Shown here: positions 13,131-37,015 of the stretch, piece by piece | Layout of the letters: each line of letters starts with the position of its first letter | How positions within the stretch are numbered: position 1 is the first letter of the stretch | Origin: Gammaproteobacteria bacterium | GTDB lineage: Bacteria > Pseudomonadota > Gammaproteobacteria > Ga0077536 | Direction of reading: 5' to 3' | DNA: 45,210 nucleotides | NCBI GenBank assembly: GCA_020845935.1 | Contig: JADLEV010000003.1 | Coordinates: forward strand, 1 to 45,210 | Translations under genes and position numbers: made by a program | The notes under the pieces: generated by a model | Databases searched by the model: none | What the model was told of the DNA's origin: nothing | Seen by the model: only the letters and a program-made list of their open reading frames with translations

Positions 13131-13157
13131 AGGTCGCGGCCGGGGCCCGCTCCTACC
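13131..13157 (-). repeat. REP-like (repetitive extragenic palindromic-type) element
   Basis: Reverse strand reads GGTAGGAGCGGGCCCCGGCCGCGACC, resembling the GTAGGAGCGGG...CCGCGAC REP core of Pseudomonas/Xanthomonas-type genomes. Only one copy seen in the window. Confidence 0.55.
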
Positions 13158-14274
13158 ACCGGGGCGGGATCGCGTGCTTGCGCAACTGACCGCGAAACTG
13201 GTGGTAGCTCAGGCCGAGCAAGGCCGCGGCCTTGCGCTGGTTGAATCGGGTCCGCCGCAGCGCGGCTTGCAGCAATCGTTGCGCAAAGGCCGCGGTCAAT
13301 GCATCGAAACTGCACGGCAGCTCGGGGTCCCCTTCCACCAGTGCTTGCTGCGCTGCGGGTGCTGCGTCCGGAGCCGCGGCGGTCAAGCGTTCATCGGCGA
13401 TTCCTGCCGCAACCAACCCTGGCGCAGTTCCGGTCGCAGGAAGCCGTTCGATCGGTGTGACAGGTGAGGCAACCGCCGCCAGGCGGTACGGCGACGCGAA
13501 GGGATCGAACTCGATGGCCTCGATGATTTGCTCGGTACGTTCCAGCCGGTAGACCGCGCGCTCGACGACGTTGCGCAACTCGCGCACGTTGCCCGGCCAG
13601 GGATACGCCCGCAGGGACGCTTCGGCGTCACGCGAGAAGCCGGCGAAATACTCGCGGCCGAGTTCGCGCGTCATGTTCTCCGAGAACCGCCGCGCCAATA
13701 ATGGAATGTCACCGGGGCGCGCCCGCAGCGGCGGTACCGTCAGCACATCGAACGATAGGCGATCGAGCAGATCGGCGCGGAAGCGGCCGCTGTGCGCCAG
13801 GCTCGGCAGATCGACGTTGGCCGCGGCGACGAGCCGGACATCGACCGACTCGGTCGCGCTGGAGCCGACGCGCTCGTACTCGTGATACTCGACCACCCGC
13901 AGCAGCTTCTCCTGCAAGCGCAGGCTCATGCTGGAGATCTCATCGAGAAACAGCGTGCCGCCGTCGGCCAGTTCGAACCGCCCGACCCGCGCGCGCGTCG
14001 CGCCGGTATAGGCACCGGCGACATGGCCGAACAGTTCCGACTCGAGCAGATCCTCGTGCAGCGCGGCGCAGTTGAACTTGACGAAGTTGCGCTGCCAGCG
14101 CTCCGACAGGTAATGCAGCCGCGCCGCGATCAGTTCCTTGCCGGTGCCACGCTCGCCGACGATCAGGACCGGCTTATCGAGCGGTGCGAGGCGCGAGACC
14201 TGTTCCAGAACGGCGAGAAAGTTGTCCGCTTCACCGACGATGGGGTCCGGTGATTCGACTCGCTCAGGCGTCAT
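13153..14274 (-). CDS. pspF: Phage shock protein transcriptional activator PspF (sigma-54 enhancer-binding AAA+)
   Basis: GERGTGKELIAARLHYLSERWQRNFVKFNCAALHEDLLESELFGHVAGAYTGA...GGTLFLDEI...WPGNVRELRNVVERAVYR; C-terminal Fis-type HTH; no receiver domain; divergent from pspABC. Confidence 0.94.
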   Translation of the reverse strand: MTPERVESPDPIVGEADNFLAVLEQVSRLAPLDKPVLIVGERGTGKELIAARLHYLSERWQRNFVKFNCAALHEDLLESELFGHVAGAYTGATRARVGRFELADGGTLFLDEISSMSLRLQEKLLRVVEYHEYERVGSSATESVDVRLVAAANVDLPSLAHSGRFRADLLDRLSFDVLTVPPLRARPGDIPLLARRFSENMTRELGREYFAGFSRDAEASLRAYPWPGNVRELRNVVERAVYRLERTEQIIEAIEFDPFASPYRLAAVASPVTPIERLPATGTAPGLVAAGIADERLTAAAPDAAPAAQQALVEGDPELPCSFDALTAAFAQRLLQAALRRTRFNQRKAAALLGLSYHQFRGQLRKHAIPPRW

Positions 14275-14435
14275 GGCAGTTAGCCTCGATTACCACGATG
14301 TGGCGAATTATCTCGAACATTAGCCATATTGACCACGAACAATAGGGTAACCCAAGCAAAAGGTGGGTGTCCCAGATTAGGCTCAGTTCGATGGACATTC
14401 AGTTAAATCAATCGGTTGCCGCGCAAGCGCGACAC

Positions 14436-14453
14436 TTGGCACGGGGATCGCAA
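14436..14453 (+). promoter_or_regulatory. Sigma-54 (-24/-12) promoter of pspABC
   Basis: TTGGCACGGGGATCGCAA: GG at 14438-14439, 10-nt spacer, GC at 14450-14451; close match to TGGCACG-N4-TTGCA; ~70 nt upstream of pspA. Confidence 0.85.
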
Positions 14454-14520
14454 TGTCTAGCCCATGATTCGCCACCGGCGAATCGCTTGGGACATACCAG
14501 AGGAAACTGCGGAGACTGCC

Positions 14521-15198
14521 ATGGGAATATTTTCACGATTCTCGGATGTCGTTAACTCGAACATCCACACGATGCTGGACAAGGCCGAAGACCCGGAAAA
14601 GATGGTCCGGCTGATCATTCAGGAGATGGAGGACACGATGGTCGAGGTGCGCTCGACCGCGGTCCGCGCGCTGGCGCGCAAGAAGGAGATTCAGCGAGCA
14701 CTCGAACAATTGCGGCATGATGCCGAGGACTGGGCCGCGAAGGCGGAACTCGCGGTCACGCGCAACCGTGACGATCTGGCGCGCGGCGCGCTCGGTGCGC
14801 GCGAGCGTGCCGTTGCTCAGGCCGCGCATCTGGAGCAGGAAGCCGCGACGCTGGAGCAGGAGATCGACAAGCTCGATCACGACATCGCGCAACTGAAGGC
14901 GAAGCTCGGCGACGCCCGCCAGCGGCAAAAGGCGATCACGCTCCGGCGCCAGTCGGTCAGCTCGCGGCTGAAGGTCAAGACGACGATCAACGATCAGCGC
15001 GCCACGGATGCGATGGAAAAGCTGTCGCGCTACGAAGGCCGGATCGATCGGATGGAAGCGGAACTCGAAGCCTATGATCTCGGTACGCGCGATCTGGCGG
15101 AGGAGTTCAAGACCATGGAGGAAAATGAGCGCGTCGAGCGTCAACTAGAAGAGCTGCGCAGCAAGCTGCGCGCGCAAAAACCGGTGCGACCGGAATAG
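14521..15198 (+). CDS. pspA: Phage shock protein A
   Basis: MGIFSRFSDVVNSNIHTMLDKAEDPEKMVRLIIQEMEDTMVEVRSTAVRALARKKE...; coiled-coil PspA/IM30 family. Confidence 0.97.
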   Translation: MGIFSRFSDVVNSNIHTMLDKAEDPEKMVRLIIQEMEDTMVEVRSTAVRALARKKEIQRALEQLRHDAEDWAAKAELAVTRNRDDLARGALGARERAVAQAAHLEQEAATLEQEIDKLDHDIAQLKAKLGDARQRQKAITLRRQSVSSRLKVKTTINDQRATDAMEKLSRYEGRIDRMEAELEAYDLGTRDLAEEFKTMEENERVERQLEELRSKLRAQKPVRPE

Positions 15199-15990: not shown

Positions 15991-16902
15991 ATGGCAGAAG
16001 CAATGATCGTCGCCGAGGGTGTGCGTCACGTGTACCGGGGCGGTCGCGTCGCGCTCGATGAAGTCAGTCTCAGCATCGGCACCGGGCTGTTCGGCCTGCT
16101 TGGCTCGAATGGTGCCGGCAAGAGCACCTTGATGCGGATCCTCTGCACGCTGCTCGCGCCGACCGCCGGCACCGTGCGCGTTGGCGGCCGAGACGTGCTG
16201 CGCGAGCGCACCGCGGTGCGCCGGTTGCTCGGCTACCTGCCGCAGGAGTTCGGGGCCTGGCGCCTGCAACGCGTCGCCGAGGTCGTCGATTCACTCGCGG
16301 CCTTGTCGGGCATGAGCGATCGCACCCAGCGCCAGCGCCGGGTCGCCGAGGTGCTCGATTCGGTCGGGCTCGGCAAGGTCGCCGATCGCAAGGTCAAGCA
16401 ATTGTCCGGCGGCATGCTGCGCCGTCTCGGTGTCGCGCAGGCGCTGGTGCACGAGCCGCGCGTGCTGATCGTCGATGAACCGACCGTCGGCCTCGATCCG
16501 GAGGAGCGCTTGCGCTTTCGCCAGTTGATGGCGGATCTTGGCCGCGATCGCACCGTGGTGCTGTCCACCCACATCGTCGCCGACCTCGGCTCGGGCTGCG
16601 CCGATCTGGCGATCATCGACCACGGCAAGGTCCGCTTTCGCGGCGCGCCCACCGAACTGCTGCGCGAGGCGCACGACAAGGTGTTCGAGATCACCGTGCC
16701 GGTGGCCGCCGAAGGTGCGCTGCTGGAGCTGCTCGAGATCGTCCGCCGTGTCGCCAATGGCGGCATGCTCCAGCTCCGCGGCGTGCTGCGCGGCAGCACG
16801 ATTCCCGCCGGCGCGACGCCGGTCGCAGACATCACGCTCGAAGAAGCCTATCTCGCGTTCATGCTGCCGCATGGACTCGTCGTCGAGGAGACCGCGCCAT
16901 GA
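15991..16902 (+). CDS. ABC transporter ATP-binding protein (ABC-2 type)
   Basis: Walker A GSNGAGKST, signature LSGGMLRRLGVAQAL, Walker B VLIVDEPTVGLDPEER, H-loop STHIV; SD GAGGAGGAG upstream. Confidence 0.95.
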   Translation: MAEAMIVAEGVRHVYRGGRVALDEVSLSIGTGLFGLLGSNGAGKSTLMRILCTLLAPTAGTVRVGGRDVLRERTAVRRLLGYLPQEFGAWRLQRVAEVVDSLAALSGMSDRTQRQRRVAEVLDSVGLGKVADRKVKQLSGGMLRRLGVAQALVHEPRVLIVDEPTVGLDPEERLRFRQLMADLGRDRTVVLSTHIVADLGSGCADLAIIDHGKVRFRGAPTELLREAHDKVFEITVPVAAEGALLELLEIVRRVANGGMLQLRGVLRGSTIPAGATPVADITLEEAYLAFMLPHGLVVEETAP

Positions 16903-19900
16903 TTCGTTTCGCACCGATCTGGACCGTCGCCCGGGATGAGTTGCGCCTGACCCGACGGACGTTTCGTTACTGGGTGTTCACCGCGGGTTCGTTCCTGCTG
17001 GGGCTCGTCGCCTGGGTGTACTACTCGGCGTTGCATGGCTTCCTCTCCGGCTACTCGGGCACGGTCGCATTGATCGGTCCGCATTACCTGTTCACCGCGG
17101 TCGGCTTCTATTTCCTCACGGTGTTCATGTTCGGCGTCGCCTTCCTCGGCTTCGACGTGCGCGCCCGGGATCAGCGCGAAGGGATCGTCGAAGTGTTGGA
17201 CGCGCGACCGCTGTCGAATCTGGAATTGATTGCCGGCCGCTGGCTCGGCCTCGTGCTTGCGGCCTGGCTGCCGGTGGTGGGGCTGACGCTGTTCGCGACG
17301 CTGCTCGGCTGGCTGCTGACCGCGCTCGATGCGCCGCTCGGCGATGTCCCGACGCTGCACTCGCTGCTCGCCTTCGTCGGTTTCATGGCGATCCCGGCGC
17401 TCGCGTTCGGCTTCGCGCTGGTGTTCGTGATCACGCTGCTGGTGCGGCACCGGTTGCTCGCCGCAGTGCTGTCACTTGCGGCGTTGTATGGCCTGTTCGC
17501 GGCGCTGGTGATCGCCGGGCCGGGAACGGCGGCGCTGGTCGATTACATCGGCATCGCGCAGCTTGGCGCGACATCCGATTTCGTGCCGGCGATCGCGCGT
17601 GATCTGTGGGCCTGGTTGCAACGCGTTGGCGTGCTGCTGGTCGCGTTCGGCCTCATCGGCATCGCCGCCGCGATCCATCCCCGGCTCGATGATGGCCGCC
17701 GCGCGATACGGTTCGCCGCGGGCACCGCGGTGGTTATCGCGGGCCTGGGGCTGCTCGGCGGTGCCGGCGGCGCGCGGCAACGCGCGATCCCGCAGCTCGA
17801 TCAGTGGGCGGCGGCGCACCAGGCGCATGCCGATGATGTCGTGCCGGATCTGGTCGCAATCCGTGGCGAGGTCGTCATCGAACCCGGCCGCGTTCTCGAC
17901 GGCAAGCTCGCGCTCGAATTCCGTGCCCGCCCCGGCACGTCGCTGACGCGCGCGCTGTTCACGCTGAATCCCGGCCTCACGGTGCAGCGCATCACGAACG
18001 CAGACGGCAACCCCATCGAATTCACTCACGCCAATGGCTTGCTGGAACTGGTGTTGCCACAACCGTTGGCTGGTGGCGAGGTGATGACGGTAGCGCTGGA
18101 TTATCGCGGTGCGCCGCGGCTGGCGTTCGGTTATCTCGACAGCGCGGTGGTCATCGAACGCGGCAACATCATCGCCAGCACCGTCGGGCTGCTCGGCACC
18201 GATCGCGGCATTTTCGATCGCCGCTACGTCGCGCTGCTGCCCGGCATCGGCTGGTTGCCCGTCCCCGGCGCCGATGTCGCCCGTGACGATCCGCGCTTGC
18301 GCCCACGCGACTTCTTTTTGCTCGACCTCGAAGTCGAGGTGCCGGAGGGCTGGTTGCCGGCCGGACCCGGGCGGCGCGAGGATCGCACCGGCGCGGCGCC
18401 TGACCGCGCGCGCTACCGGTTCGCGCCCGGCGTGCCGGTACCGGAAGTCGCATTGCTTGCCGGCCGCTTCGCGCAGCGCCAGACCGAGATCGAAGGCGTC
18501 ACGATCGAACTGCTGACGCATCCGGCGCACCGCCGCGCGCTCGGCGCGCTCGAACCGCACGGTGAGCGCATCCGCGCCTTCGCGGCGGACAAACTGCGCC
18601 TGGCACGCGCGGAAGGCCTCGCCTATCCGTTCACCGCGCTGACATTGGTCGAGACGCCGTTCAATCTGCGTGTGTTTCGCGGCGGCTGGCAGCTCGGGCT
18701 CGGCATCGGCCCGCCCGGACTCATCCTGCTGCGCGAGTGCGGTTTTCCGACGGCACGGTTCGACACGTTGTATCGGAACGAGGACGATCCGCCAGACGCG
18801 GCGATGGTGCTGAACCGCTTCTTCAGCAATGACTTTTCCGCGGGCAATGCGCTCGCCGCGCTCGCGCAATCCTTTTTCGCGCATCAGACCGGCGCCACCG
18901 GCGCCGAAGCGCTGGCGCTCGATTTCACGCTGGACGAGCTCGCGACGCTGACGCTGACGGAAACCCGATCGTACTTTTCCGCGCATCTGTTCGATGGCGG
19001 CTTCAACACGCGGGTCGGTCAGGTCGTCCAGCAGTATCAGGACCGGCGCCCCCGCACGCTGACGCTTGGCGACGTCGTGGTGCAGACCTTCGCCTCGCGG
19101 CCGGAGGTCTGGGAGCGCGTGCTGTCGTCATCGCTGCTGGAGCTTGCGCCGCGGCAGAATCCGCGCCAGACCCTCGACATCCTGTCGCTGAAGGCGGGCG
19201 CGCTGGCGAAGCTGCTGTACGACCAGCTCGGCGCCGCCGGCAGCTCGCGGCTGCTCGGGTCCCTTGCCGAGCTGCATCGCGGTGGCAACTTTACCGTCGA
19301 GGACTTTGTCACCGCGCTCGCCGACGCCGGCATCGCCGAACCGCAAACGCTGGTCGCCGACTGGCTGACCACGACCCGCCTGCCCGGCTTCGTCGCGGCG
19401 CCGGTCGAGTTCTACCGGATCGCCGACGACGCCCTCGGCACGCCGCGGTTCCAGCTGAAGGTGCGGGTCCGCAACGATGAGCCGGTGCCGGGCACGATCC
19501 GCGTGACCTCGGTCGAGAGCACGCGCGATGACGATCAGATCGACACCAATCAGATGCGGCTGATGCCGAGCGAGCTGATCCGCGTGCCGGGTGAGAGTGC
19601 GATCGAATACGCGGTGGTGCTGACGCGCAAGCCGATCTCGGTATGGATCGAGCCATCGCTGTCGTTGAACCGTGGCTCGTTCGTCGCGTTCTCCGATTAT
19701 GAAAGCACCTCGGTCGCGACCGTTGGCCGCCGCGACGATCCCCCCCAGCTGGGCGTCAGCACGATCGACTGGACGCCGCCGGATGAAGGCATCGTCGTCG
19801 ATGACCTTGACCCCGGCTTCGCCATCGTGCGCGACGCCGCCGCGACCGGCACCCGCCTCGGTGGCGTCCTCGCGACCAATTCCGGCGATATCGATCAGGG

Positions 19901-20324
19901 CTTGCCGCGCGTGCCGGAGCGCCAGGTGCCGAACAACTGGAGCCGCGCCGACGCACCGAACGGCTGGGGCAAATACCGGCACACGGTGGCATTGCAGCGG
20001 CCCGGCGATGGCGCGACCCGCGCCACGTTCACGACGACGCTGCCGCGGGCAGGGCGCTGGCGGCTGGAGTTGCACCTGCCGAATCTGGTGTTCACCAGTG
20101 GCATCGCGGCCTGGGGCCGCTGGACGCTGCACCTCACCGCCGGCGATACCAAACATCAGGTCGCCTTCGACACCGCGGGCGGCGTCGCCGGCTGGAATGA
20201 AATCGGCGAATATGAGCTGCCGCCCGGCGAAGTCACGCTGGCGCTCAGTGACAGCACCGAAGGCCGACTGATCGTCGCCGATGCGATCCGCTGGCTGCCG
20301 CGGGACAACGGCCGCGAACAATGA
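16899..20324 (+). CDS. ABC-2-type permease fused to M1-peptidase-like periplasmic domain and golvesin/CBD-like C-terminal domain
   Basis: 1141 aa: ~7 hydrophobic segments in the first ~290 aa; M1-like fold cues (beta-saddle region; LTLVETPFNLRVF...GLILLRE) but no HEXXH; C-terminal NNWSRADAPNGWGKYRHTVAL...RATFTTTLPRAGRWRLELHLP...GWNEIGEYELPPGEVTLALSDSTEGRLIVADAIRWLP resembles golvesin/Xly CBD-like domains. ATGA overlap with upstream gene. Confidence 0.82.
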   Translation: MIRFAPIWTVARDELRLTRRTFRYWVFTAGSFLLGLVAWVYYSALHGFLSGYSGTVALIGPHYLFTAVGFYFLTVFMFGVAFLGFDVRARDQREGIVEVLDARPLSNLELIAGRWLGLVLAAWLPVVGLTLFATLLGWLLTALDAPLGDVPTLHSLLAFVGFMAIPALAFGFALVFVITLLVRHRLLAAVLSLAALYGLFAALVIAGPGTAALVDYIGIAQLGATSDFVPAIARDLWAWLQRVGVLLVAFGLIGIAAAIHPRLDDGRRAIRFAAGTAVVIAGLGLLGGAGGARQRAIPQLDQWAAAHQAHADDVVPDLVAIRGEVVIEPGRVLDGKLALEFRARPGTSLTRALFTLNPGLTVQRITNADGNPIEFTHANGLLELVLPQPLAGGEVMTVALDYRGAPRLAFGYLDSAVVIERGNIIASTVGLLGTDRGIFDRRYVALLPGIGWLPVPGADVARDDPRLRPRDFFLLDLEVEVPEGWLPAGPGRREDRTGAAPDRARYRFAPGVPVPEVALLAGRFAQRQTEIEGVTIELLTHPAHRRALGALEPHGERIRAFAADKLRLARAEGLAYPFTALTLVETPFNLRVFRGGWQLGLGIGPPGLILLRECGFPTARFDTLYRNEDDPPDAAMVLNRFFSNDFSAGNALAALAQSFFAHQTGATGAEALALDFTLDELATLTLTETRSYFSAHLFDGGFNTRVGQVVQQYQDRRPRTLTLGDVVVQTFASRPEVWERVLSSSLLELAPRQNPRQTLDILSLKAGALAKLLYDQLGAAGSSRLLGSLAELHRGGNFTVEDFVTALADAGIAEPQTLVADWLTTTRLPGFVAAPVEFYRIADDALGTPRFQLKVRVRNDEPVPGTIRVTSVESTRDDDQIDTNQMRLMPSELIRVPGESAIEYAVVLTRKPISVWIEPSLSLNRGSFVAFSDYESTSVATVGRRDDPPQLGVSTIDWTPPDEGIVVDDLDPGFAIVRDAAATGTRLGGVLATNSGDIDQGLPRVPERQVPNNWSRADAPNGWGKYRHTVALQRPGDGATRATFTTTLPRAGRWRLELHLPNLVFTSGIAAWGRWTLHLTAGDTKHQVAFDTAGGVAGWNEIGEYELPPGEVTLALSDSTEGRLIVADAIRWLPRDNGREQ

Positions 20325-20357: not shown

Positions 20358-21467
20358 ATGAGAATTTCCCCTGAGCCGTCGGTTGCACCCGTGTTGCCGC
20401 GCCGGCAGTTGCTGAACGCGCTGCCGGCGCTGCTGCTGATGCTCGCCGCCTGTACCCCGGCCGGCGACAACGAGGCGGTCGATTTCCTGGTGCCGATCAC
20501 GGCGCAGGAAGTCACGCTTGGCAGCATCGAGGATCGCGTCATCGCGACCGGCACGCTGCGCGCCCATCAGGTGATCACGCTGACGGCGGAGTCGGCCGGC
20601 ATCCTCGAAATCCTGCCCGGCACCACGGGCCGGCCGCTGGCCGAGGGCGATGCAGTGCAGGCCGGCACGCGCCTCGCGCGCGTGACCGGCGAGGATGCGC
20701 GCATCGCGGTACGGCGCGAAGTCAGCCAGAAGCGTTTCGACGCGGCACGGCAGGATCTCGAAGCGGCGCAGAAGCTGCGCGAGCGCGGCCTCATCTCGCA
20801 GAAGGAACTGAAGAACCTGCAAACCGCGTTCGAGGACGCCAAGCTGGAACTCGATCGCTCGCTGCACACCGAGCAGCGCAACCAGATCGTCACGCCGATC
20901 GACGGCGTCATCCAGAAACTCGGCCGCAACAGCGACGGCCAGTACATGTCGAACGGGCAACTGGTCGCGACGGGTCAGGTGATTGCGCAGGTCGCGCCGA
21001 CCGATGTGCTGATTGCCGACGTCGATCTGGTCGGCAGGGATCTGGCGCGCGTCGTGCTCGACACCCCGGCACGGGTCCGTTATCACGCCTTCGGCGCGCG
21101 CGAGTTTCCCGGCACCTTGCGGCGCTTCGCGCCGATGATCGACGAACGCACGAGGGCGCTGCGCGCCGAGGTCGAAGTCGCCAACGCCGACGGCGTGCTG
21201 CGCCCGGGCATGTTCGTCGAGGTGACGCTGATCGTCGAACGCCGCGATGACGTGCCGCTGCTGCCGCGCCAGGCGGTCACGGTACGCGGCGGCCAGCCGG
21301 TGGTGTTCGCGCTGAGCGGACAGCGTGCGCTGCAACGTGCGGTGACGCTCGGCCTCGGCGACGATCGCAGCGTCGAGATCACCAGCGGCGTGCAGGCCGG
21401 CGATCGCATCATCGTCAGCGGCCTGGAAACGCTCGCCGATCAGACCCGCGTGCGCGAGACCCGCTAG
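20358..21467 (+). CDS. RND efflux periplasmic adaptor (HlyD/MFP family), probable lipoprotein
   Basis: Lipobox-like LLMLAAC; IEDRVIATGTLRAHQVITLTAESAGILEILPG...EGDAVQAGTRLARV; coiled-coil hairpin EVSQKRFDAARQDLEAAQKLRERGLISQKELKNLQTAFEDAKLEL; RPGMFVEVTLIVERR. Confidence 0.93.
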   Translation: MRISPEPSVAPVLPRRQLLNALPALLLMLAACTPAGDNEAVDFLVPITAQEVTLGSIEDRVIATGTLRAHQVITLTAESAGILEILPGTTGRPLAEGDAVQAGTRLARVTGEDARIAVRREVSQKRFDAARQDLEAAQKLRERGLISQKELKNLQTAFEDAKLELDRSLHTEQRNQIVTPIDGVIQKLGRNSDGQYMSNGQLVATGQVIAQVAPTDVLIADVDLVGRDLARVVLDTPARVRYHAFGAREFPGTLRRFAPMIDERTRALRAEVEVANADGVLRPGMFVEVTLIVERRDDVPLLPRQAVTVRGGQPVVFALSGQRALQRAVTLGLGDDRSVEITSGVQAGDRIIVSGLETLADQTRVRETR

Positions 21468-21469
21468 CC

Positions 21470-24400
21470 ATGGAGTCCCTGGCGCGCGGCGCCGCACGGC
21501 GGCCGGTCGGCGTCACCGTACTGGCCATCGTACTGACTATTCTCGGCGTCGCGTCGTGGCCGCGGCTCGCGCTCGATCTGTTTCCCGACCTGCAGAGCCC
21601 GACCGTGCTGGTGTCGGTCAATGCCGGCAATCGCCCGCCGATCGAAATGGAGCGGTTGTACGGCGAGCGCATCGAGCAACTGCTGTTCACGGTGCACGGC
21701 CTGCGCGCGGTCGATCAGGTGGCGCGTACCGGCCGGCTGGTGACGCGGGTGACGTTCGACTGGGACGTCGACCTCGATTACGCGCTGGTCGATGTCAGCA
21801 AGGCGGTCGCGCCGATCGGCGCCGATCCGGATGTCGACGAAGTGCTGGTGCGCCGCTTCGATCCACGGCAGTTGCCGATCCTGACGCTTGGCCTGGTCGC
21901 GCCCTCCGGCACGCCGGATCTTGCCGAGCTGAAGCGCATCGCCGAGCGCCAGCTCGCACCGGCGCTGCAACGGCTGGCGGGCGTCGCCGAAGTGCGGGTC
22001 ACCGGCGGCCGCGATCGCGAAGTGCAGGTCCGGCTCGACGGCACCCGGCTCGCGGCGCACGGCGTCACGCTGAACGAAGTCGAGACCCGGATTCGCGCGA
22101 CCAACGTTGATCGCAGCGCCGGCACGCTGGTCGAGGACGACAGGGTCTATCTGGTGCGCGGCCTGACGCGGTTCGCCTCGGCCGCCGATGTCGCCAATAC
22201 CGTGGTGCGCTATCTCGATCAGCCGAACGGCGGCAAGACCGCGCTCAAGGTGTCCGACCTCGGCGAGGTGATCGTCGCCAACGCCGACATCACGCATCTG
22301 GTGCGCGTCGATGGCAGCGAGGGCGTCGGCCTCGATGTCTACAAGGAGGCGGGCGCCAATACCGTCGCGGTATCGCGCACGGTGCGCGACGCGCTCGCCA
22401 ACCTCGGCGCCGATCTGCCGGGGGTCGCGGTGCGCGTGATCGGCGACGAGGCGGCGCTGGTCGAGGATTCGATTGCCGACGTCGAGAGTTCGGCGTTGCT
22501 CGGCATCGGCCTCGCGATGCTGGTGCTGGCGCTGTTCCTGCGCGGGCTCGGGCCGATCCTGATCGTCGCCGCGGCGGTGCCCGTGTCGCTGTTCGTCACC
22601 GTGTTCGCGATGAAGTTCGCCGGACACAGCCTGAATCTGATGACCCTCGGCGGCCTCGCGCTCGGTGCCGGCATGCTGGTCGACAACGCCATCGTCGTGG
22701 TCGAGAGCATCTTCCGCCAGCGCGCCGCCGGCCTCTCGGCGCGCGACGCGGCGGCACGCGGCGCCGGACTGGTCGGCACCGCGATCGCGTCGAGCACGCT
22801 GACCACCTGCGTCGTGTTTCTGCCGGTGCTGTTCGTCGAAGGCATGGCGGCGCGGCTGGTGTCCGGCATCGCGTTCACCGTCGTGCTGTCCCTGCTCGCG
22901 TCACTCGCGGTCGCGCTGGTGCTGGTGCCGGCGCTCGCCGCCTGGTTCCTGCCGAAGCAACCGGCGCGCGGGCTCGATGTCGGCAGCGCTTGCATCGAGC
23001 GGCTGGTGACCCGCCTGCTGCAGCGGCCGTGGACCGTGATCGCCGTGGCCGCGGCGCTGTCGGCGCTGTCGTGTCTGGCGCTGTTGCGGCTCGGCTCGGA
23101 GCTGTTGCCACCGGCCGATCCCCGCCAGCTCGGGCTGCGCCTGGTCGGTACGCCGGGCCAGCGGGTCGAGTCGATGGCGCAGTCGGTCGCGATCGTCGAG
23201 GACCTGCTGCGCGGCGCCGCCGGCACGGAGCTGGTCGCGCTGCGCGCCGAAGTCGGCCGGCTGCCCAATGACGATCGCCTGATCCGCGAGCGCCAGACCG
23301 AGGAGCACACCGCCGAGATCCGGGCACGGCTCGCCGCGGATGGCCGCGGCGCCGGTGCGCTGGCCGGATCGATCCAACCGGTGCTGGCGCAGCTGCATGG
23401 CCTCGATGCCGAATGGGACACCGGTGGCAGTGCGCTCGCCACCGCACTCGGCATTGGCGGCCCGCCGGTCGTGGTCGAGATCCGCGGTCAGGCGCTGGAG
23501 GATCTGCGCCGCGCCGGGACGCTGATCCGCGACCGGTTGGCCGCGCGCGATGAACTGTGGAACGTGCGCACCTCGTTCGAAGGCGGCCCGCCAGAAGCGC
23601 GGCTGCACCTGGCGCAGGCGCGCGCCGATGGTCTGGGCGTCGATCTGGAACAGCTGACCGGCATCGTCGCCGCGGCGCTCGACGGCCGCCGCGCGACGAC
23701 GCTGACGCTTGGTGACGAGGAGCAACATGTCGTGCTGTACCTGACGCCGCCCGCTCGCGGCACCTTGACCGAATTGCCGTTCCTGACCCGCGACGGCGCG
23801 CGGCTCCCCGTCGGCGACGTCGCCACGCTGGAACCGGTCGCGGGCGCGAATGAAATCTTCCGGCGCGATCAGCGGCGCGTAGCGCAGGTCACGGCGAGGA
23901 TCCGTGCTGGCGTCACCGCCCCGGCGGCGCGCGCGGCGACGCAGGCGGCGCTGGCCGAGGTCGCCTTGCCGCCCGGGCTCGGCGTCACCCTGGCCGGCGA
24001 CGAACTGGAACGCAGCCGGACGCTGACGCAACTCCAGTGGGCCGGCGCGCTGGCATTGTTGCTGGTGCTGATGGTGCTCGCCGCCAGCTTCGAATCGTTG
24101 CTGCATCCGCTGACGGTGCTGAGCTCGATCCCGATCTCGTTGATCGGCGTCGCCCTCGCGCTGGTGCCGTTCGGTCAACCGCTCGGCGTGATGGCGCTGC
24201 TCGGGCTGATCGTGCTCGCCGGCATTGCCGTCAACGATTCAATCCTGCTGATCGAACAGGCGCGCCAGCTCGTGCGCGACGGTTGTGACACAGCCACCGC
24301 ACTGGCGCGCGCCGCCGCGCTGCGGCTGCGGCCGATCGTGATGACCACCGCGACCACGGTGTTTGCGCTGCTGCCGCTCGCGTTCGGGCAAGGGGAATCG

Positions 24401-24532
24401 GCGCGGCTGCGCGCCCCGCTGGCGCTGACCGTGGCCGGCGGCGTCACCGCATCGCTGGTGGCATCGCTGGTCGTCATCCCCTGCGTCTTCCTGGTGCTGG
24501 AGCGGCTGCGCCGACGGGCGCACCGCGCCTGA
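21470..24532 (+). CDS. RND efflux transporter permease
   Basis: 1020 aa: RRPVGVTVLAIVLTILGVASWPRLALDLFPDLQSPTVLV; TM4 GGLALGAGMLVDNAIVVVESIFRQR; TM10-11 GLIVLAGIAVNDSILLIEQARQL...RLRPIVMTTATTVFALLPLAFG. Confidence 0.95.
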   Translation: MESLARGAARRPVGVTVLAIVLTILGVASWPRLALDLFPDLQSPTVLVSVNAGNRPPIEMERLYGERIEQLLFTVHGLRAVDQVARTGRLVTRVTFDWDVDLDYALVDVSKAVAPIGADPDVDEVLVRRFDPRQLPILTLGLVAPSGTPDLAELKRIAERQLAPALQRLAGVAEVRVTGGRDREVQVRLDGTRLAAHGVTLNEVETRIRATNVDRSAGTLVEDDRVYLVRGLTRFASAADVANTVVRYLDQPNGGKTALKVSDLGEVIVANADITHLVRVDGSEGVGLDVYKEAGANTVAVSRTVRDALANLGADLPGVAVRVIGDEAALVEDSIADVESSALLGIGLAMLVLALFLRGLGPILIVAAAVPVSLFVTVFAMKFAGHSLNLMTLGGLALGAGMLVDNAIVVVESIFRQRAAGLSARDAAARGAGLVGTAIASSTLTTCVVFLPVLFVEGMAARLVSGIAFTVVLSLLASLAVALVLVPALAAWFLPKQPARGLDVGSACIERLVTRLLQRPWTVIAVAAALSALSCLALLRLGSELLPPADPRQLGLRLVGTPGQRVESMAQSVAIVEDLLRGAAGTELVALRAEVGRLPNDDRLIRERQTEEHTAEIRARLAADGRGAGALAGSIQPVLAQLHGLDAEWDTGGSALATALGIGGPPVVVEIRGQALEDLRRAGTLIRDRLAARDELWNVRTSFEGGPPEARLHLAQARADGLGVDLEQLTGIVAAALDGRRATTLTLGDEEQHVVLYLTPPARGTLTELPFLTRDGARLPVGDVATLEPVAGANEIFRRDQRRVAQVTARIRAGVTAPAARAATQAALAEVALPPGLGVTLAGDELERSRTLTQLQWAGALALLLVLMVLAASFESLLHPLTVLSSIPISLIGVALALVPFGQPLGVMALLGLIVLAGIAVNDSILLIEQARQLVRDGCDTATALARAAALRLRPIVMTTATTVFALLPLAFGQGESARLRAPLALTVAGGVTASLVASLVVIPCVFLVLERLRRRAHRA

Positions 24533-24534
24533 CG

Positions 24535-27500
24535 ATGGTCCGGCTCGCCGCGATCCCGATCGAGCGCCCGGTCGCGACCTCGATGCTGTTTCTCGGCATC
24601 GTGCTGCTCGGGTGCATCGGTTGGCTGCGGCTGCCGGTCGAGCTGCTGCCGGCGCTCAGCGGCAGCGAGCTGTTCGTGCAGTTCCAGCGGCGCGGCGCCG
24701 AACCGGCGGTGGTCGAGCAGGAAATCCTGTTGCCGCTGGAAGCGGCAATCAAGGCGCTCGGCGGCGTCACCGAAACCGAAGCGCAGATCCGCGGCTCCGG
24801 CGGCCGGCTGCGGGTGCAGTTCGACCGCTACGCCAACGGCAAGGTACGCGAACTCGAGCTGTCCCGCGTCGCCGCCGAGCTGGCGCGCACGCAACCGGAA
24901 GGATCGTTCATCAACGTCAGCGCGCAGGATCTGTCGGCGCTGTCGCGCATCGTGATGATCGTCCAGGTCACCGGCGGCGCGGACGCGAACGCACTGCGCG
25001 ATCTGGTCGAGGAGCGGATCCAGCCGCGGCTGCTGGCGATCCCCGGCCTGTCGCAGGTGCTGGCGACCGGAGGCGCGCCACGCGCGATCACGGTCTCATT
25101 CGATGCCGATCGTGCGGCGGCGCTCGGCGTGCACTCGGCCGAGGTGCTCGCGGCGCTGAACCGCGCGGTCGGCCGGCTCGGCTTCGCCGGCGGCCTCGAG
25201 GACGCGAACCGGCGCGAGGCGATCATGCTCGACGGCCGGCCCGGCGGCATCGCCTCGCTCAGCGAGATCCGCATCGATCCACGCCGGCCAGTGCTGCTGC
25301 GGCACGTCACCGACATCGAGCTCGGCACGCGGCGCCAGGATCAAATCTATCGCGTCAACGGCGCGCCGGCGGTCGGCCTGCTGGTGTTCCAGAACGAAGG
25401 CGAGAACCTGGTGCGGATCGGCCGCGCGGTGCGCGCCGAGCTGGAGCGGTTACGCACCGAATATCGCGGCCATGGCCTCGATTTCGTGCTCGGCTTCGAC
25501 GCCGCAGCGACCGTCGAACAGCAGTTGCAGCGGCTCAAGTCGCTGGCACTGTCCGGCTTTCTGGCGGCGCTGGTCGTGCTGTATCTGTTCTTGCGCGAAT
25601 TGCGCGCAGTCGCCGTGGTCGCGATCGCGGTGCCGGTCAGTCTGTTGGCCGCGGCGGCCCTGCTGTATCTCGGCGGCTGGACACTGAACATCATCACGCT
25701 GCTCGGCTTCGCCATCGGCATCGGCATGCTGGTCGACAACAGCATCGTCGTCTATGAAGCGGTACAGCGTGCGGTCGAACTGGGCAGCGATGCCCGCACC
25801 GCGGCGAGCGCGGGGATCCAGCGCACGCTGCGCGCGATCCTCGCTGGCAGCGTCACCAACGCCATCGTCTTCCTGCCCGGCCTGATCCTGATCGACGATC
25901 CGCTGATTCGCGATCTGCTGGAACTACTCGCGGTGACCATCCTGTTGCCGCTCGCCGCGTCGCTGCTGGTCGCGGTGGGGCTGGTGCCACTGCTGGCGCA
26001 ACGGCTCACCGCGCCGGCCGCGATCGCACGCCATGCCGGCGACGAGGCCAGGCGCCTGCGCTATGCCGGCTTGCTGCCGCCACAGCGTGCCCGGGCCTTG
26101 TTCACCGGAATGCTGAAGGTCGCGCTGCGCCGGCCAACGCCGTGGCTCGCCACGATCGGCGGCATGGTGCTGGCGACGATTGTCATCGCCGTGCCCTGGG
26201 TGCTGGTCAGTGCGATGGGGCAGCCGGCGCAGCAGGCCGACGAACTGCGCTTCGATCTCGAGTTTCCAACCCGAAACACGCTGGCGGCCGCGGCCGTGGC
26301 GGCGGCGCGGCTGGAGCAGGCGTTGCTCGCGACCCCCGGCGTCGAGCGCATCGAAAGCACCTTCGGCGAGGAGCAGGGCGCGCTGACCGCGCATCTGATC
26401 GACCGCGCTGAACGCCCGGCGACGGCGACCGCCGCCGCGATCCGCAAGGTGGTCACCGACACGCTGGCGGAGCTGCCCAACGTGCGCTTGCGCACCGGCG
26501 CCGAAGCCGGCGGCGGTGACAGCGGCGGAGGCTTGCAGGCGCTGTTCGGCGGTGCGCCCGCCGAGATCGCGGTGTCGGGACCGGACATGACGCGACTCGG
26601 CCAGATCGCGCAGGAGCTGGCCAGCCGGCTGCGCGCGATCGCCGGGGTCGGCAACGTCGAGGTGGTGCGGCCGGTGGGGCAGGACGAGCTGCGCATCGCA
26701 CCGCGCCTGAATGTACTGACCGATTACGGTCTGCATCCGGAAGCGGTGCTGAACGCGCTTGGGGTCGTCTCGCGCGAAGGCATCGCGTTGCCGGTCGGCT
26801 TCACCTTCAGCGACGGCCGCGAAATCCCGATCGAACTGCGGCGGCCGGAGCGCGAACGCGAGCGCGCGGTAGCGAGCCTGGCCGAGTTGCGCATCCCGAC
26901 CAGCGAGGGGCTGGTGCCGCTCGGCGTGCTGGCGACGATCAGCCGGGAGCTGCCACCGGAGGTCATCACCCACCACAACGGCCGGCGCGAGGTGATCGTG
27001 CGCTACCAGCTCGGCGACGACGCGCCCGCGTCCGGGCCGGCACGGGTCGCGCTCGAAGCGCGGATCCGCGATGCGGTCCGGCTCGCCGTGCGCCCGCCCG
27101 GCTATGCGATCGAGGCCTTGGGCGCAGAAGCCAACATCGACTGGTTCAAGCGGCTCGCCATCCCGGCGATCCTGCTGCTGTACGCAGTGCTGGCGATCAC
27201 ATTCGAATCGCTGACGCTGCCGGTGCTGGTGCTGCTCGCGGTGCCGCTGACCGTGCTCGGCGCGACCTGGGCGCTGGTGGTGACCGGCACCGGTCTGGAG
27301 ATGATGGCCCTGCTCGGTGTATTGACACTGCTCGGGCTGACCGTGAACCCGGCCATCCTGCTGGTCGATCGGATGCAGGAGCGGATCCGTCGCGGTGGCA
27401 CCGGTGCCGCCGCGGCGGCGCTCGCCTCGGTGCGCGAGCGCACCCGGCCGCTGCTGCTGACCACCGCGACCACCATCGCCGGGCTGTGGCCGCTGGCGCT

Positions 27501-29334
27501 CGCGACCGGTCGCGAGAACGAAATCTGGCCGCCGTTTGCGATCGTGATGATCGGCGGCCTGACGACCTCGGCGCTGCTGACGCTGCTGGTGATCCCGGTC
27601 GGTTTCGTGTTCCTGGCGCGGCTCGATCGCCTGTTCGGCCGGCTCGGCCCCTGGGTCGTCCTGTGCTGGCTCGGCCTCACCGCGGGCCTGCTGTATCCGC
27701 TCATCGCCGCCGACCTCATCACCTCATTGACCTGGCAAGTGTTGACCGGCGTGCTGCTCGCCATCGCCGTGCTGGGCGGTTGCGTCCTCGTAATGCCGCG
27801 GCCGGCGCCGCCCGAGCCGGACAGCGCGGCACTGTCGGTGGATGTCCGCTATCTGCGCAAGGTCTATGGCGAACCGGGCCCCGTCCGGCGCGCCTGGCAC
27901 GCCGGCACCGGCTTCGCCGAACGCGTGCTCGCACGCGGCGGCGACCCGCGCGATCCGGCACTGGCCCGCCGCCAGGCGGTAACCTTGGCACTGCTGCTCG
28001 GTGCCGTGCTGGTGCTGCTCGGTCAATTGCAGACGACGTTCTGGCAGCTTGTCTATACTGGCGGCGCGGTCGCGCTGCTGCACCAGCTGCTGCTCGCGCT
28101 GGCGCGATCGCTCGAGCGTACCGATGTGCTCGGCCGGGTGCGGGCCGACGATCCGTTGCGTCACGCGCTGCCGCTGCTGCCCTGGCTCGCGCTCGCGCTG
28201 TTCGTCTGGCACGGCATCGTTGCACCGAAGCTCGCGGACGCGCCGGCAACACTCGCGACGGCGGTGCCGCTGCTGCTCGCGGCGCTGCTCGTGTTCGTCC
28301 AGCTGGCGCGCGGGACCGCTTTGCGCATTGGCCGCGGCACGCTCGCCGGCCGGCTCGATCGAGGCGCCCTGCTCGCCGTGCGCAATGTCTGGCGCGCCTT
28401 CTGTCTGCGCGTGTTCGGGCTCGATCTGCCACGCCGCGAGGTCGAGGCGTTGCGGCCTGTGAGTTTTCACGCGACGACCGGCATGGTCGGTCTGCTCGGA
28501 CCGAACGGCGCTGGCAAGACGACCTTGCTGCGCTTGCTCGCCGGGGTGCTCGAACCCTCGCTCGGCACCATCCGCTACGGCGGCGCGCGGCTCGATGCGA
28601 TCCGTACCCGCGTCGCGCATTGGGTCGGCTATCTGCCGCAGGAGTTCGGCCTGCCGCAACACCTGAGCGCGCGCGAATACCTCACCTGGTTCGCGCTGCT
28701 GTACGGCATCGCCCCGCGCGCCGTGCGTGAGGCGCGGGTAGCGAAGCTGCTGGCCGACGTCGGTCTTGCCGAGCGTGCCAATGATCGCATCGGCTCGTTC
28801 TCCGGTGGCATGCGCCAGCGCGTCGCGGTGGCGCGGGCATTGCTGCGCGAGCCGCCGGTGATCATCGTCGATGAACCGACGGTCGGTCTCGATCCGCGCG
28901 AGCGCATTCGCTTCCGCACGCTGCTGACGACGCTGGCGCGCAGCCGCATCGTGCTGTTCTCGACGCATGTGGTCGAGGATGTCGCGGTGTCCTGCGATCG
29001 CGTCATCGTGATGGCGCGCGGCGCGATCGTGCATGACGGCGCGCCGGAAAGCCTGGCCGGTGTCGCGCGCGGACACTGCTGGGAGCTGGTGCTTGCCGCG
29101 GGCGCGATGCCGCTGCTGCCGGCGACCACGAAGATCGTCGATCGCGTGCCACTGCCGGATGGGCAGGAGCGGTTGCGCTTGCTCGCAGAGACCTCGCCGC
29201 ACAGCACGGCGTCGGCGATCGAACCGACGCTGGAGGATGGCTATCTGTATCTGATCGCCCGGGCAACACCACCGGCGCGGGCGGGCAACGATGCGCCGGA
29301 GGAGGTCGCACCGGTGCGGGCGCAGCCGACATGA
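24535..29334 (+). CDS. RND transporter permease - ABC transporter ATPase fusion protein
   Basis: Single 1599-aa ORF: RND permease over ~aa 1-1030 (AIPIERPVATSMLFLGIVLLG; TM4 FAIGIGMLVDNSIVVYEAVQRA; LRERTRPLLLTTATTIAGLWPLAL), extra hydrophobic segments, then a full ABC NBD (GLLGPNGAGKTTLLRLLAG; SFSGGMRQRVAVARALL; PPVIIVDEPTVGLDPRER; FSTHVVEDV). Confidence 0.93.
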   Translation: MVRLAAIPIERPVATSMLFLGIVLLGCIGWLRLPVELLPALSGSELFVQFQRRGAEPAVVEQEILLPLEAAIKALGGVTETEAQIRGSGGRLRVQFDRYANGKVRELELSRVAAELARTQPEGSFINVSAQDLSALSRIVMIVQVTGGADANALRDLVEERIQPRLLAIPGLSQVLATGGAPRAITVSFDADRAAALGVHSAEVLAALNRAVGRLGFAGGLEDANRREAIMLDGRPGGIASLSEIRIDPRRPVLLRHVTDIELGTRRQDQIYRVNGAPAVGLLVFQNEGENLVRIGRAVRAELERLRTEYRGHGLDFVLGFDAAATVEQQLQRLKSLALSGFLAALVVLYLFLRELRAVAVVAIAVPVSLLAAAALLYLGGWTLNIITLLGFAIGIGMLVDNSIVVYEAVQRAVELGSDARTAASAGIQRTLRAILAGSVTNAIVFLPGLILIDDPLIRDLLELLAVTILLPLAASLLVAVGLVPLLAQRLTAPAAIARHAGDEARRLRYAGLLPPQRARALFTGMLKVALRRPTPWLATIGGMVLATIVIAVPWVLVSAMGQPAQQADELRFDLEFPTRNTLAAAAVAAARLEQALLATPGVERIESTFGEEQGALTAHLIDRAERPATATAAAIRKVVTDTLAELPNVRLRTGAEAGGGDSGGGLQALFGGAPAEIAVSGPDMTRLGQIAQELASRLRAIAGVGNVEVVRPVGQDELRIAPRLNVLTDYGLHPEAVLNALGVVSREGIALPVGFTFSDGREIPIELRRPERERERAVASLAELRIPTSEGLVPLGVLATISRELPPEVITHHNGRREVIVRYQLGDDAPASGPARVALEARIRDAVRLAVRPPGYAIEALGAEANIDWFKRLAIPAILLLYAVLAITFESLTLPVLVLLAVPLTVLGATWALVVTGTGLEMMALLGVLTLLGLTVNPAILLVDRMQERIRRGGTGAAAAALASVRERTRPLLLTTATTIAGLWPLALATGRENEIWPPFAIVMIGGLTTSALLTLLVIPVGFVFLARLDRLFGRLGPWVVLCWLGLTAGLLYPLIAADLITSLTWQVLTGVLLAIAVLGGCVLVMPRPAPPEPDSAALSVDVRYLRKVYGEPGPVRRAWHAGTGFAERVLARGGDPRDPALARRQAVTLALLLGAVLVLLGQLQTTFWQLVYTGGAVALLHQLLLALARSLERTDVLGRVRADDPLRHALPLLPWLALALFVWHGIVAPKLADAPATLATAVPLLLAALLVFVQLARGTALRIGRGTLAGRLDRGALLAVRNVWRAFCLRVFGLDLPRREVEALRPVSFHATTGMVGLLGPNGAGKTTLLRLLAGVLEPSLGTIRYGGARLDAIRTRVAHWVGYLPQEFGLPQHLSAREYLTWFALLYGIAPRAVREARVAKLLADVGLAERANDRIGSFSGGMRQRVAVARALLREPPVIIVDEPTVGLDPRERIRFRTLLTTLARSRIVLFSTHVVEDVAVSCDRVIVMARGAIVHDGAPESLAGVARGHCWELVLAAGAMPLLPATTKIVDRVPLPDGQERLRLLAETSPHSTASAIEPTLEDGYLYLIARATPPARAGNDAPEEVAPVRAQPT

Positions 29335-30083
29335 CGGGTCGAACCGACACGGGTGGCGGAAACACGCAAGCACGCTCGCTCGAGCGTGCGCGCGATGCAC
29401 TGGAACTCGTGCCACACGCGCTGCGCCTGCTCGCCGGCCGGCGCTACTGGCTGGCGCTGGTGCTACCGTTGGCGTGGCCAGCGTTCCAGGCCATGCGCCT
29501 GCTGCTCGGCTGGCAGGAGCGGAGCTTCCTGCCGGAGAACGTCCAGTTCCAACTCATCGGCTTGCCGCTGACCGCGCTCGCCATCGCCCTCGGTGTGCGC
29601 ATCGTCGCGGTAGAGATCGAGCAACGCACGCTCGAAGTCACCTACACCGTACCGGGCGGCGCCCGCCGCGTCTGGCTGGCGAAACTCGCCGGCGCGCTGG
29701 TGTTGCTCGTCGGCGCCGAAGCTCTGCTCGCCTTGACCACCGCCATCGCCTTCACCTCGGTGCCGCTCGTGGCGCTGCATGGCGCCTTGCAGGGTGCGGT
29801 GTTCTATCTGGTGCTGGCGATGGCGCTCGGCACCGTGACCCGCGGCGAACTCACCGGCGCGCTCGCGACCGGTGCGCTGCTGTTCGGCAACCTGTTGTTC
29901 ACCGGCTTCGGCCAGGTTCAGCTCCGCGCCTCACCGCTGTTCAATCCCCTCGCGCTGCGCGACGCCCCCGCCGACCTGCTCGCCTGGACCGTGCAGAACC
30001 GCCTCGGCGTCGCCCTCGCGACGCTCGCGCTGCTGGCCCTGACCATCGCCCGTGCGGAGCGACGGGAGCGGTTGTTGATGTAG
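29331..30083 (+). CDS. ABC-2-type transporter permease
   Basis: 250 aa, multiple hydrophobic segments; ALGVRIVAVEIEQRTLEVTYTVPGGARRVWLAKLAGALVLL typical of ABC-2 permeases; ATGA overlap with the preceding fusion gene. Confidence 0.82.
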   Translation: MTGRTDTGGGNTQARSLERARDALELVPHALRLLAGRRYWLALVLPLAWPAFQAMRLLLGWQERSFLPENVQFQLIGLPLTALAIALGVRIVAVEIEQRTLEVTYTVPGGARRVWLAKLAGALVLLVGAEALLALTTAIAFTSVPLVALHGALQGAVFYLVLAMALGTVTRGELTGALATGALLFGNLLFTGFGQVQLRASPLFNPLALRDAPADLLAWTVQNRLGVALATLALLALTIARAERRERLLM

Positions 30084-31573: not shown

Positions 31574-33754
<2,181 letters not shown>

Positions 33755-35011: not shown

Positions 35012-35074
35012 GGAACTTTTCTCAGTCTTTGATTTCGCCGCGACGTGACCTGCACCCTAAGAGGGAGAGCCTGC

Positions 35075-37015
35075 ATGAGAACCAAATGTCATCGCCACAA
35101 CGGTCCCCGCTTCACCTCGCTGCTCGGCATCAGCATTGCGTTGCTCGCCGCCGGATCCGCGCGCGCCTGGGTCGTCGACCAGACATCGACGGTGAACTTC
35201 AAGTCCACCAAGAATTACGGCGGCGTCCCGTATACGAAGAAGACGCTCCCACTCATCGACAATTTCAATCCTTCGATCCCGTACGGCGGTATCGTCGGCG
35301 GTGTCGGCCTGTACGCCGGGGCCGGCGGCCATGCCGACATCGATCTGGAACTTGAAACCTGGTTCGACAACTCGTTCGATCTCGCCGCTGCGGCGAAGCA
35401 GCAGACTTTTCTTTTCTCGCCGAACTCGGTCAGCCACGTCGGCGACTCATTTTTCCTGGTCAACAACATCGACTCGCTCGGCATCCAGAAGCTCAATCTG
35501 TCGAGCGGCAACCTATATGCAGGCGCCGGCCTCGACATGACGCTCGGCGGTTGGGCGAAGGCGAAGGCTTGCATCGGCTTTTGCGTCTCGGCTGGTATCA
35601 AGCTGAATATCAGCAGTAATTTCGACCTTGCCGAAATCAGCAACAGCGGCCTCAGCGTGTTCGACAACCAGGTCGACAGTTCCTCGCCGTTTCAGTACAC
35701 CGATCCCAGCGGCCTCTTTTCGGTGTCGGCCAATGCGCCGACCTTTGCCAAAACGAACGTCGCAATCCTGCCGGGCCTCGGCGTGAATACCGGCTGGATG
35801 CAGCAGCCGGTTCTGACGGCGAACCTCGATGTCGCCGAGTTGATTGCGAAAGCGGCAGGATTTTCCATCCCGCTCGAAGGCGATCTGCTGGGCTTTGGCT
35901 ACGAGCTCTTCAGTCTGGACGCTTACCTCGGCCTCGACCTGCGCCAGCTAATCAAGTTTCAACCGCCAACGCTGACGACCAACTACAACTTCACCGCACC
36001 GGTCCAGCTGTTTGACGACGGGACCAACACCTGGAGCGCGCCGCTGACGCAGTTGACGCTCGCCGACGGCCAGGCGGTCGAGCTGCGCAGTGCCGGCGCC
36101 GCCAATATCGGTATCACCAGCGCCCCGACCTTGAACTACAAGATCGACTACGACGTCGATTTCGCGCTGAAGGCCGGCATCGACCTGAGCGCGCTCGAAA
36201 TCCACGGCTTTGGTCTTTCGCTCGGTCCGCTGATCGATCCCGATCCGTGGGAACTCAATCTCGGCACGCTGGACGTCGATTCCGGCACCGACACCGGCGA
36301 GGTCGCGGCGAAGGCGGGAACGATCAATCTGCATTTCGAGAACCTCGTGGCAATGCCTCCGAGTTATGAGGGTGGTGAGCCAATCATCGTCGACCTGTGC
36401 GCCGCTCCGGCGGCTTGCTCCAGCACCGGCTACGTCACGACGGAGCTTGCCACGGGCGATCCCGATTCCGGCTTGGTCGAGCAGACGACCCGGAGAGTCT
36501 TCAATTATGGTGGCGTGGATTGCGATGACCTGATTCAGGTCGGCTGCGATTTCGATTGGGACTTTGTGCCCGTCGTCCGCCAGCGCCGCAGTAGCCTCGT
36601 CGATCTTCCGGTCTGGTTCGACGATACCGCGCTTTTGGCGCAGTTGACCGAACTCGGCTTGCCGCTACCGGATTTCGGTACTCCGTTGCTGGCCGACATC
36701 GGTGGCGATTTCGCGGAAGACTTTGCGTTGCTGGGCGAGTTTCTAGCCGCGGCGGCGGCGCCGGATTTGATTGACTCCGACGATGCCGCGATGCTCGCCG
36801 CGCTTGCCGCACTTGGCGTCGATACCGACGTCCCGTTCCCGCCGCGCCCGCCGCTGACCGGGGCGCCGTACGACGCGTTGAACGACCTGACCGAAAATCG
36901 AGAGGGCTTGATTGCGTTCGGCGTGCCGGAGCCCTCGCCGGTCGCGCTTCTCACCGCCGCCTTGCCGGCGTACCTTTGGTGGCGACGCCGCCGCACACGG
37001 CACGCGCAACGCTGA
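35075..37015 (+). CDS. PEP-CTERM sorting-domain secreted protein
   Basis: Signal peptide MRTKCHRHNGPRFTSLLGISIALLAAGSARA; C-terminus VPEPSPVALLTAALPAYLWWRRRRTRHAQR = PEP motif + TM + Arg cluster; SD GAGGGAGAG. Confidence 0.9.
   Translation: MRTKCHRHNGPRFTSLLGISIALLAAGSARAWVVDQTSTVNFKSTKNYGGVPYTKKTLPLIDNFNPSIPYGGIVGGVGLYAGAGGHADIDLELETWFDNSFDLAAAAKQQTFLFSPNSVSHVGDSFFLVNNIDSLGIQKLNLSSGNLYAGAGLDMTLGGWAKAKACIGFCVSAGIKLNISSNFDLAEISNSGLSVFDNQVDSSSPFQYTDPSGLFSVSANAPTFAKTNVAILPGLGVNTGWMQQPVLTANLDVAELIAKAAGFSIPLEGDLLGFGYELFSLDAYLGLDLRQLIKFQPPTLTTNYNFTAPVQLFDDGTNTWSAPLTQLTLADGQAVELRSAGAANIGITSAPTLNYKIDYDVDFALKAGIDLSALEIHGFGLSLGPLIDPDPWELNLGTLDVDSGTDTGEVAAKAGTINLHFENLVAMPPSYEGGEPIIVDLCAAPAACSSTGYVTTELATGDPDSGLVEQTTRRVFNYGGVDCDDLIQVGCDFDWDFVPVVRQRRSSLVDLPVWFDDTALLAQLTELGLPLPDFGTPLLADIGGDFAEDFALLGEFLAAAAAPDLIDSDDAAMLAALAALGVDTDVPFPPRPPLTGAPYDALNDLTENREGLIAFGVPEPSPVALLTAALPAYLWWRRRRTRHAQR

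Follow-up and report, generated by a model that had tools for sequence, protein, structure and literature searches.

A single ORF on the forward strand (24535-29334, +) of the 45,210-nucleotide stretch of gammaproteobacterial DNA analysed here (the window; contig JADLEV010000003.1) was found to unite a full RND permease with an ABC nucleotide-binding domain (NBD) in one polypeptide of 1599 aa, running from ATG to TGA with zero internal stops and with a uniform GC3 of 0.82-0.90 along its length. Both domains were recovered on the same chain by Pfam, ACR_tran (PF00873) at aa 7-1027 (E 8.9e-146; model positions 4-1020 of 1021) and ABC_tran at aa 1309-1449 (E 1.8e-29), and this conserved-domain search bore out the initial annotation, which had read the two domains from one uninterrupted ORF. 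RND pumps and ABC pumps are conventionally assigned to different superfamilies, each with its own energy source, and the remark made with that annotation, that no characterised transporter is known to carry both motors in one chain, agrees with the open-access literature that we searched, in which no RND-ABC fusion was found described; no description was found either of the six-gene export cassette in which the fusion is encoded. Judged from sequence, both halves belong to known superfamilies, save for half of the proton relay and the contiguity of the NBD.

The RND part of the fusion, RND2 (aa 1-1028; 24535..27618, +), is a full-length ACR_tran fold with 12 TM helices and two periplasmic loops (Pfam, hydropathy), with PDB matches to MdtB, CmeB and AcrB; its best NCBIfam drug efflux permease model, NF033617, scored 395.9 bits, below the cut-off of 1250. 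Between the RND permease and the main NBD block lie about six additional TM helices, confirming the hydrophobic segments noted previously at about aa 1030-1270. Two of these, TM13-14 (aa 1029-1098; 27619..27828, +), were assigned by hydropathy and were also modelled as two helices in an initial six-sequence AF2 model, at a poor pLDDT of 48. They are followed by the segment LSVDVRYLRKVYG (aa 1100-1112; 27832..27870, +), by about 190 aa with four TM helices (aa 1113-1303; 27871..28443, +; hydropathy and AF2 helices), by the remainder of the NBD, here NBD2, from its second strand onwards (aa 1304-1510; 28444..29064, +; ABC_tran), and by a NosF-like C-terminal accessory domain (29065..29334, +), assigned by Foldseek and by a profile that matched NosF (7o0y) over positions 267-550.

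In NBD2 we located a Walker A motif (GPNGAGKT, aa 1322-1329), a Q-loop (YLPQ, Q1369), a signature (SGGMRQR, S1423), a Walker B motif (VIIVDEPT, D1446/E1447), a D-loop and an H-loop (H1478). All six motifs, the Walker B Glu included, are invariant in 30/30 orthologues, and no residue required for ATP hydrolysis is missing from NBD2. The NBD2 profile also matched the ABCA family, and a Foldseek search with the fusion model returned ABC ATPases, including NosF with its accessory domain (E 6.6e-20). NBD2 passed no cut-off of the named NCBIfam equivalogs; membership of TIGR03864 (PQQ-dependent alcohol dehydrogenase ABC system) was rejected at 154 bits against a cut-off of 302, and PADLOC matches were set aside as generic ATPase matches.

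NBD2 departs from the usual arrangement of an NBD, in which the A-loop aromatic residue on strand 1 comes directly ahead of strand 2. The segment LSVDVRYLRKVYG resembles an NBD first strand with its A-loop (compare SIEVRDLRHVYKGG in NBD1 of locus L012), and its A-loop tyrosine (Y1111) is invariant in 30/30 orthologues but stands 200-219 residues ahead of Walker A, as against about 18 in ordinary NBDs. By scanning an HMM of stand-alone NBDs against NBD2 prefixed by each 19-residue piece of the same protein, we found that the aa 1100-1112 segment ranked first of about 1280-1310 pieces in 30/30 orthologues (z 6.2 to 11.4). An AF2 model of aa 1093-1599 was built with stand-alone NBD rows from which strand 1 was absent, to keep them from dictating its position; in it aa 1100-1112 were modelled as a strand (pLDDT about 89) that would pair with the NBD sheet, most of the NBD exceeded a pLDDT of 90, and the insert was modelled as long helices (pLDDT 53-84) in an uncertain arrangement relative to the NBD (pTM 0.63). 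The agreement of HMM scan and structure model gives good support to the conclusion that NBD2 is apparently split after its first strand by an insertion of about 190 aa with four TM helices. This insertion within the NBD had been missed in the initial annotation, and the description given there of an intact NBD holds for the catalytic motifs, all of which are present, but apparently not for the contiguity of the fold. The four-TM insert matched no Pfam family and is the least conserved part of the protein (mean identity of 36%, versus 72% for the NBD). An origin of the insert as a copy of the neighbouring permease PERM2 was rejected (hhalign probability of 0.2%).

The genome that contains the window is a draft, 62.5% complete and in 94 contigs, which made it necessary to test for an artefact. 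In a scan of GTDB genomes, six MAGs were found to carry the same full-length protein at 46-48% identity with the same junction layout, among them L011, in which the RND part has a frame break and the junction is intact, and a profile of the junction and NBD detected the fusion in a further genome, G364, that is 98% complete. In all, 29 genomes yielded 30 intact orthologous ORFs, 1576-1619 aa long. Three lie on contigs of 5.07, 4.33 and 4.31 Mb, and such megabase-scale contigs suggest that cultured sources may exist. Purifying selection acts across the junction: in close orthologue pairs dN was much lower than dS throughout, in the extra TM helices and the linker as in all other segments. No locus examined had RND2 and NBD2 as separate genes, contrary to one outcome that had been put forward as a refutation of the fusion. 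Shorter matches were accounted for by contig-end cuts (G862, G881, G841) or by the frame break in L011, and a seemingly separate NBD in G862 was rejected for the same reason, the contig end cutting its ORF. The joining of two adjacent genes by an assembly or sequencing artefact, the other refutation put forward and one that the draft state of the window's genome might have favoured, is thus refuted with near certainty by the intact orthologues, some on contigs of 4.3-5.1 Mb, and by purifying selection across the junction.

The same domain order, for which a genome search had been suggested, was recovered in all 30 orthologues. In the family to which the L009 genome belongs, 30/121 sampled genomes had the fusion, as did 31/121 sampled around the L014 genome; roughly one in four genomes sampled within a single gammaproteobacterial family carries the cassette. 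It was rare elsewhere, at 2/369 genomes of a class sample (the window's own counted), 1/399 of a phylum sample and 1/53 sampled from the family of G364, and among the sampled relatives of the window's genome it occurred in that genome only. One genome (G915) held two nearly identical copies (L119, L125), from a true duplication or a merged assembly. No relatives were found on the viral contigs searched, and none spanning 80% of the query on the plasmids searched.

The fusion is encoded among six genes that lie head to tail with gaps of -4 to 33 nt, in the order NBD1, PERM1, MFP, RND1, fusion and PERM2; a second NBD, a second ABC permease, an adaptor and a second RND in the same operon had escaped the initial annotation. 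NBD1 (15991..16902, +) is a stand-alone ABC ATPase of 303 aa (PF00005, E 5.9e-31) that is 46% identical to NBD2, with GldA and DrrA as its nearest NCBIfam models, all below cut-off. PERM1 (16899..20324, +), whose start overlaps the end of NBD1 through ATGA, is a 1141-aa ABC-2-like permease whose ABC2_membrane_2 match (E 4.9e-06) falls just short of the cut-off. Its large extracytoplasmic portion, at the C-terminal side, terminates in a Golvesin C-terminal domain, and here the Golvesin_C match (E 1.4e-08) passed the cut-off. No known fold was identified in this extracytoplasmic region; peptidase activity of PERM1 was rejected as neither a HEXXH motif nor a Pfam peptidase match was present. In several genomes PERM1 occurs in two or three tandem copies (L115, L123, L124, L139, L142). 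MFP (20358..21467, +) is a periplasmic adaptor (TIGR01730 RND_mfp, 175.7 bits where 94.9 is the cut-off; HlyD_D23), and RND1 (21470..24532, +) is a stand-alone RND permease of 1020 aa (ACR_tran E 4.6e-194), 31% identical to RND2. PERM2 (29331..30083, +), coupled to the fusion through ATGA, encodes 250 aa with about six TM helices and fell below every family cut-off; its weak matches to ABC2_membrane_2 (E 0.21-0.86), its topology and its position hint at a small ABC-2-like permease. The MacB/FtsX permease model was absent among the Pfam matches of the fusion and the permeases. The cassette contains no gene for an outer membrane channel, and TolC-family proteins (PF02321 matches) are encoded elsewhere in the window's genome.

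The order NBD1-PERM1-MFP-RND1-fusion-PERM2 was kept in most loci with enough flanking sequence, a PERM1 orthologue being present in most loci. PERM2 was the next gene 3' of the fusion in each of the 30 loci whose downstream sequence reached far enough. Six loci make up a clade (100/100 support) in which only the fusion and PERM2 remained together, and these genomes keep NBD1-PERM1-MFP-RND1 at another site. In these loci a divergent membrane protein flanks the fusion-PERM2 pair (L110, 9884-11314, where a Urate_ox_N match was tested and found; on the same side in L114, L117, L118, L120 and L121), as does a second small conserved protein. In the near-complete genome G870, MFP, RND1, fusion and PERM2 were together, with NBD1 and PERM1 not seen nearby. 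In the class sample, the fusion, PERM1 and PERM2 were confined to the same two genomes, and two fusion-negative genomes of the sampled fusion-bearing family were without RND1. This co-occurrence, the persistence of the components after the operon had split and the absence of RND1 from fusion-negative genomes indicate joint inheritance of all six components, among which the fusion and PERM2 form the tightest unit.

Every inner-membrane role in the cassette is paired (NBD1/NBD2 and RND1/RND2, each a pair of paralogues, and PERM1/PERM2), which fits a heterodimeric ABC exporter combined with a heterotrimeric RND pump. We propose, with about an even chance of being right, that the fusion acts as a tether within a composite envelope exporter. 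The RND2 half would assemble with RND1 into a heterotrimer, as in MdtB2C, a known RND heterotrimer (PMC4462101), and this trimer would meet MFP and a TolC-type outer membrane channel. NBD2, apparently with its inserted four-TM anchor, would pair with NBD1 as an ATP-driven heterodimer that powers the ABC-2 membrane domains of PERM1 and PERM2, which would be docked on the RND trimer. Substrate extracted from the inner membrane at the expense of ATP would emerge on the periplasmic side, from where the RND part would move it into the MFP and outer membrane duct. The pairings, the complex, the direction of transport and the hand-over are all inferred. Of the two readings offered at the outset, direct coupling of the two energy sources or an NBD tethered to the RND part for a neighbouring ABC permease, the second is the better supported, as PERM2 follows the fusion in 30/30 loci with sufficient downstream sequence and stays beside it even where the rest of the operon has moved. 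A further reading, in which ABC motor and RND pump are functionally as well as covalently coupled, ATP and proton-motive force acting on one cycle through an NBD threaded into the membrane by its four-TM insert, is less likely than not but has a real chance of being right.

The fusion might also do no more than keep an ABC exporter and an RND pump that handle the same compounds in equal amounts and in one place, with neither hand-over nor energetic coupling. This would agree with the tight packing of the ABC and RND genes in one operon and with the frequency with which protein fusions join partners of one pathway. We regard this as unlikely, since the retention of the fusion-PERM2 unit after the other genes had moved, and the elaborate split-NBD junction conserved in 30/30 orthologues, both suggest more than dosage.

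In RND2 of 30/30 orthologues D401 (AcrB D407) and R971 are invariant and N402 and N938 replace AcrB D408 and K940, leaving the AcrB-type proton relay (D407, D408, K940, R971) incomplete. RND1 of the window likewise has Asn at the positions matching D408 and K940, and other RND pumps of the window's genome have the classical pattern. Lacking D408 and K940 equivalents, RND1 and RND2 are uncertain users of a plain AcrB-type proton drive, a point overlooked when RND pumps were called proton-driven in the initial annotation. The same DN and N pattern was present in an ordinary, unfused RND of Ilyobacter (L091), so the Asn change is not specific to the fusion. One machine with two motors, in which ATP hydrolysis by NBD1/NBD2 drives or gates the RND2 cycle via TM13-18 and replaces or supplements proton-motive force, would draw on the strictly conserved covalent link, on membrane helices inside the NBD itself as a possible mechanical lever, and on the Asn found at half of the classical relay in all orthologues. 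The invariance of D401 and R971, the Ilyobacter pattern and the presence of PERM1 and PERM2 with the system (PERM1 was not seen nearby in G870), which gives the ATPase permeases of its own, make this doubtful.

Less probable still is a MacB-like role, in which the RND part has no proton cycle of its own and serves as a scaffold or outlet gate that bridges an ATP-driven ABC exporter to MFP and the outer membrane channel. Such a role would accommodate the two Asn residues (RND2 of 30/30 orthologues and RND1 of the window) and the membership of MFP in the cassette, but the invariant D401 and R971, a complete RND fold evolving under strong constraint and the occurrence of the DN/N pattern in ordinary RND pumps speak against it.

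The composite exporter resembles several known systems in part. MdtABC-TolC likewise has two different RND permeases and one MFP per operon, and RND2 is closest to MdtB in a PDB sequence search, but MdtB and MdtC are without an NBD, the system lacks an ABC ATPase and ABC permeases, and its relay reads DD...K where DN...N is found here. MacAB-TolC shares an ABC ATPase acting with a periplasmic adaptor, and MacB bridges to the adaptor and outer membrane channel with its own periplasmic domain. MacB joins NBD and permease in one chain (PMC8277102), but is a type VII ABC permease with four TM helices and no RND, whereas the NBD described here shares its chain with an RND permease and has two putative ABC-2-type permeases as neighbours. 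Exporters of the ABC-2/ABCA/NosDFY group (NosF, DrrA, GldA, ABCA4) have ABC-2-like permeases alongside, as is probable here, and NBD2 with its C-terminal domain matches NosF; here, in contrast, a four-TM insertion of about 190 aa apparently interrupts the NBD behind its first strand, and an RND permease is joined to it. SecDF and HpnN/MMPL are RND-fold proteins with roles beyond drug efflux, and SecDF acts beside the ATPase SecA, but there the ATPase is a separate protein of another fold, and their domains match the fusion weakly.

If its two engines are functionally coupled, the fusion would represent a new kind of exporter. The widespread and strictly conserved union of RND and ABC parts makes substrate hand-over between the two kinds of pump directly testable and allows one to ask if two energy sources act on one export cycle, and NBD2 apparently offers a case of an ATPase domain that accommodates a membrane domain between its first strand and the rest of the fold.

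Several further genes were observed around the cassette. Near it in three lineages (downstream in the window, 31574-33754; L088, 2-2203; L087, 6837-8747; upstream in G404 and G364) is a PQQ-dependent dehydrogenase whose C-terminal domain is cytochrome c-like, which may point to the physiology or substrate of the cassette. Just upstream of the cassette in the window (13153-15198) are a divergent pspF-like sigma-54 activator and a pspA-like gene, a possible link to envelope stress. Further downstream (35045-37015) the window encodes a secreted-looking protein of 656 aa without a Pfam match, the tail of which (VPEPS...WWRRRR) resembles a PEP-CTERM sorting signal.
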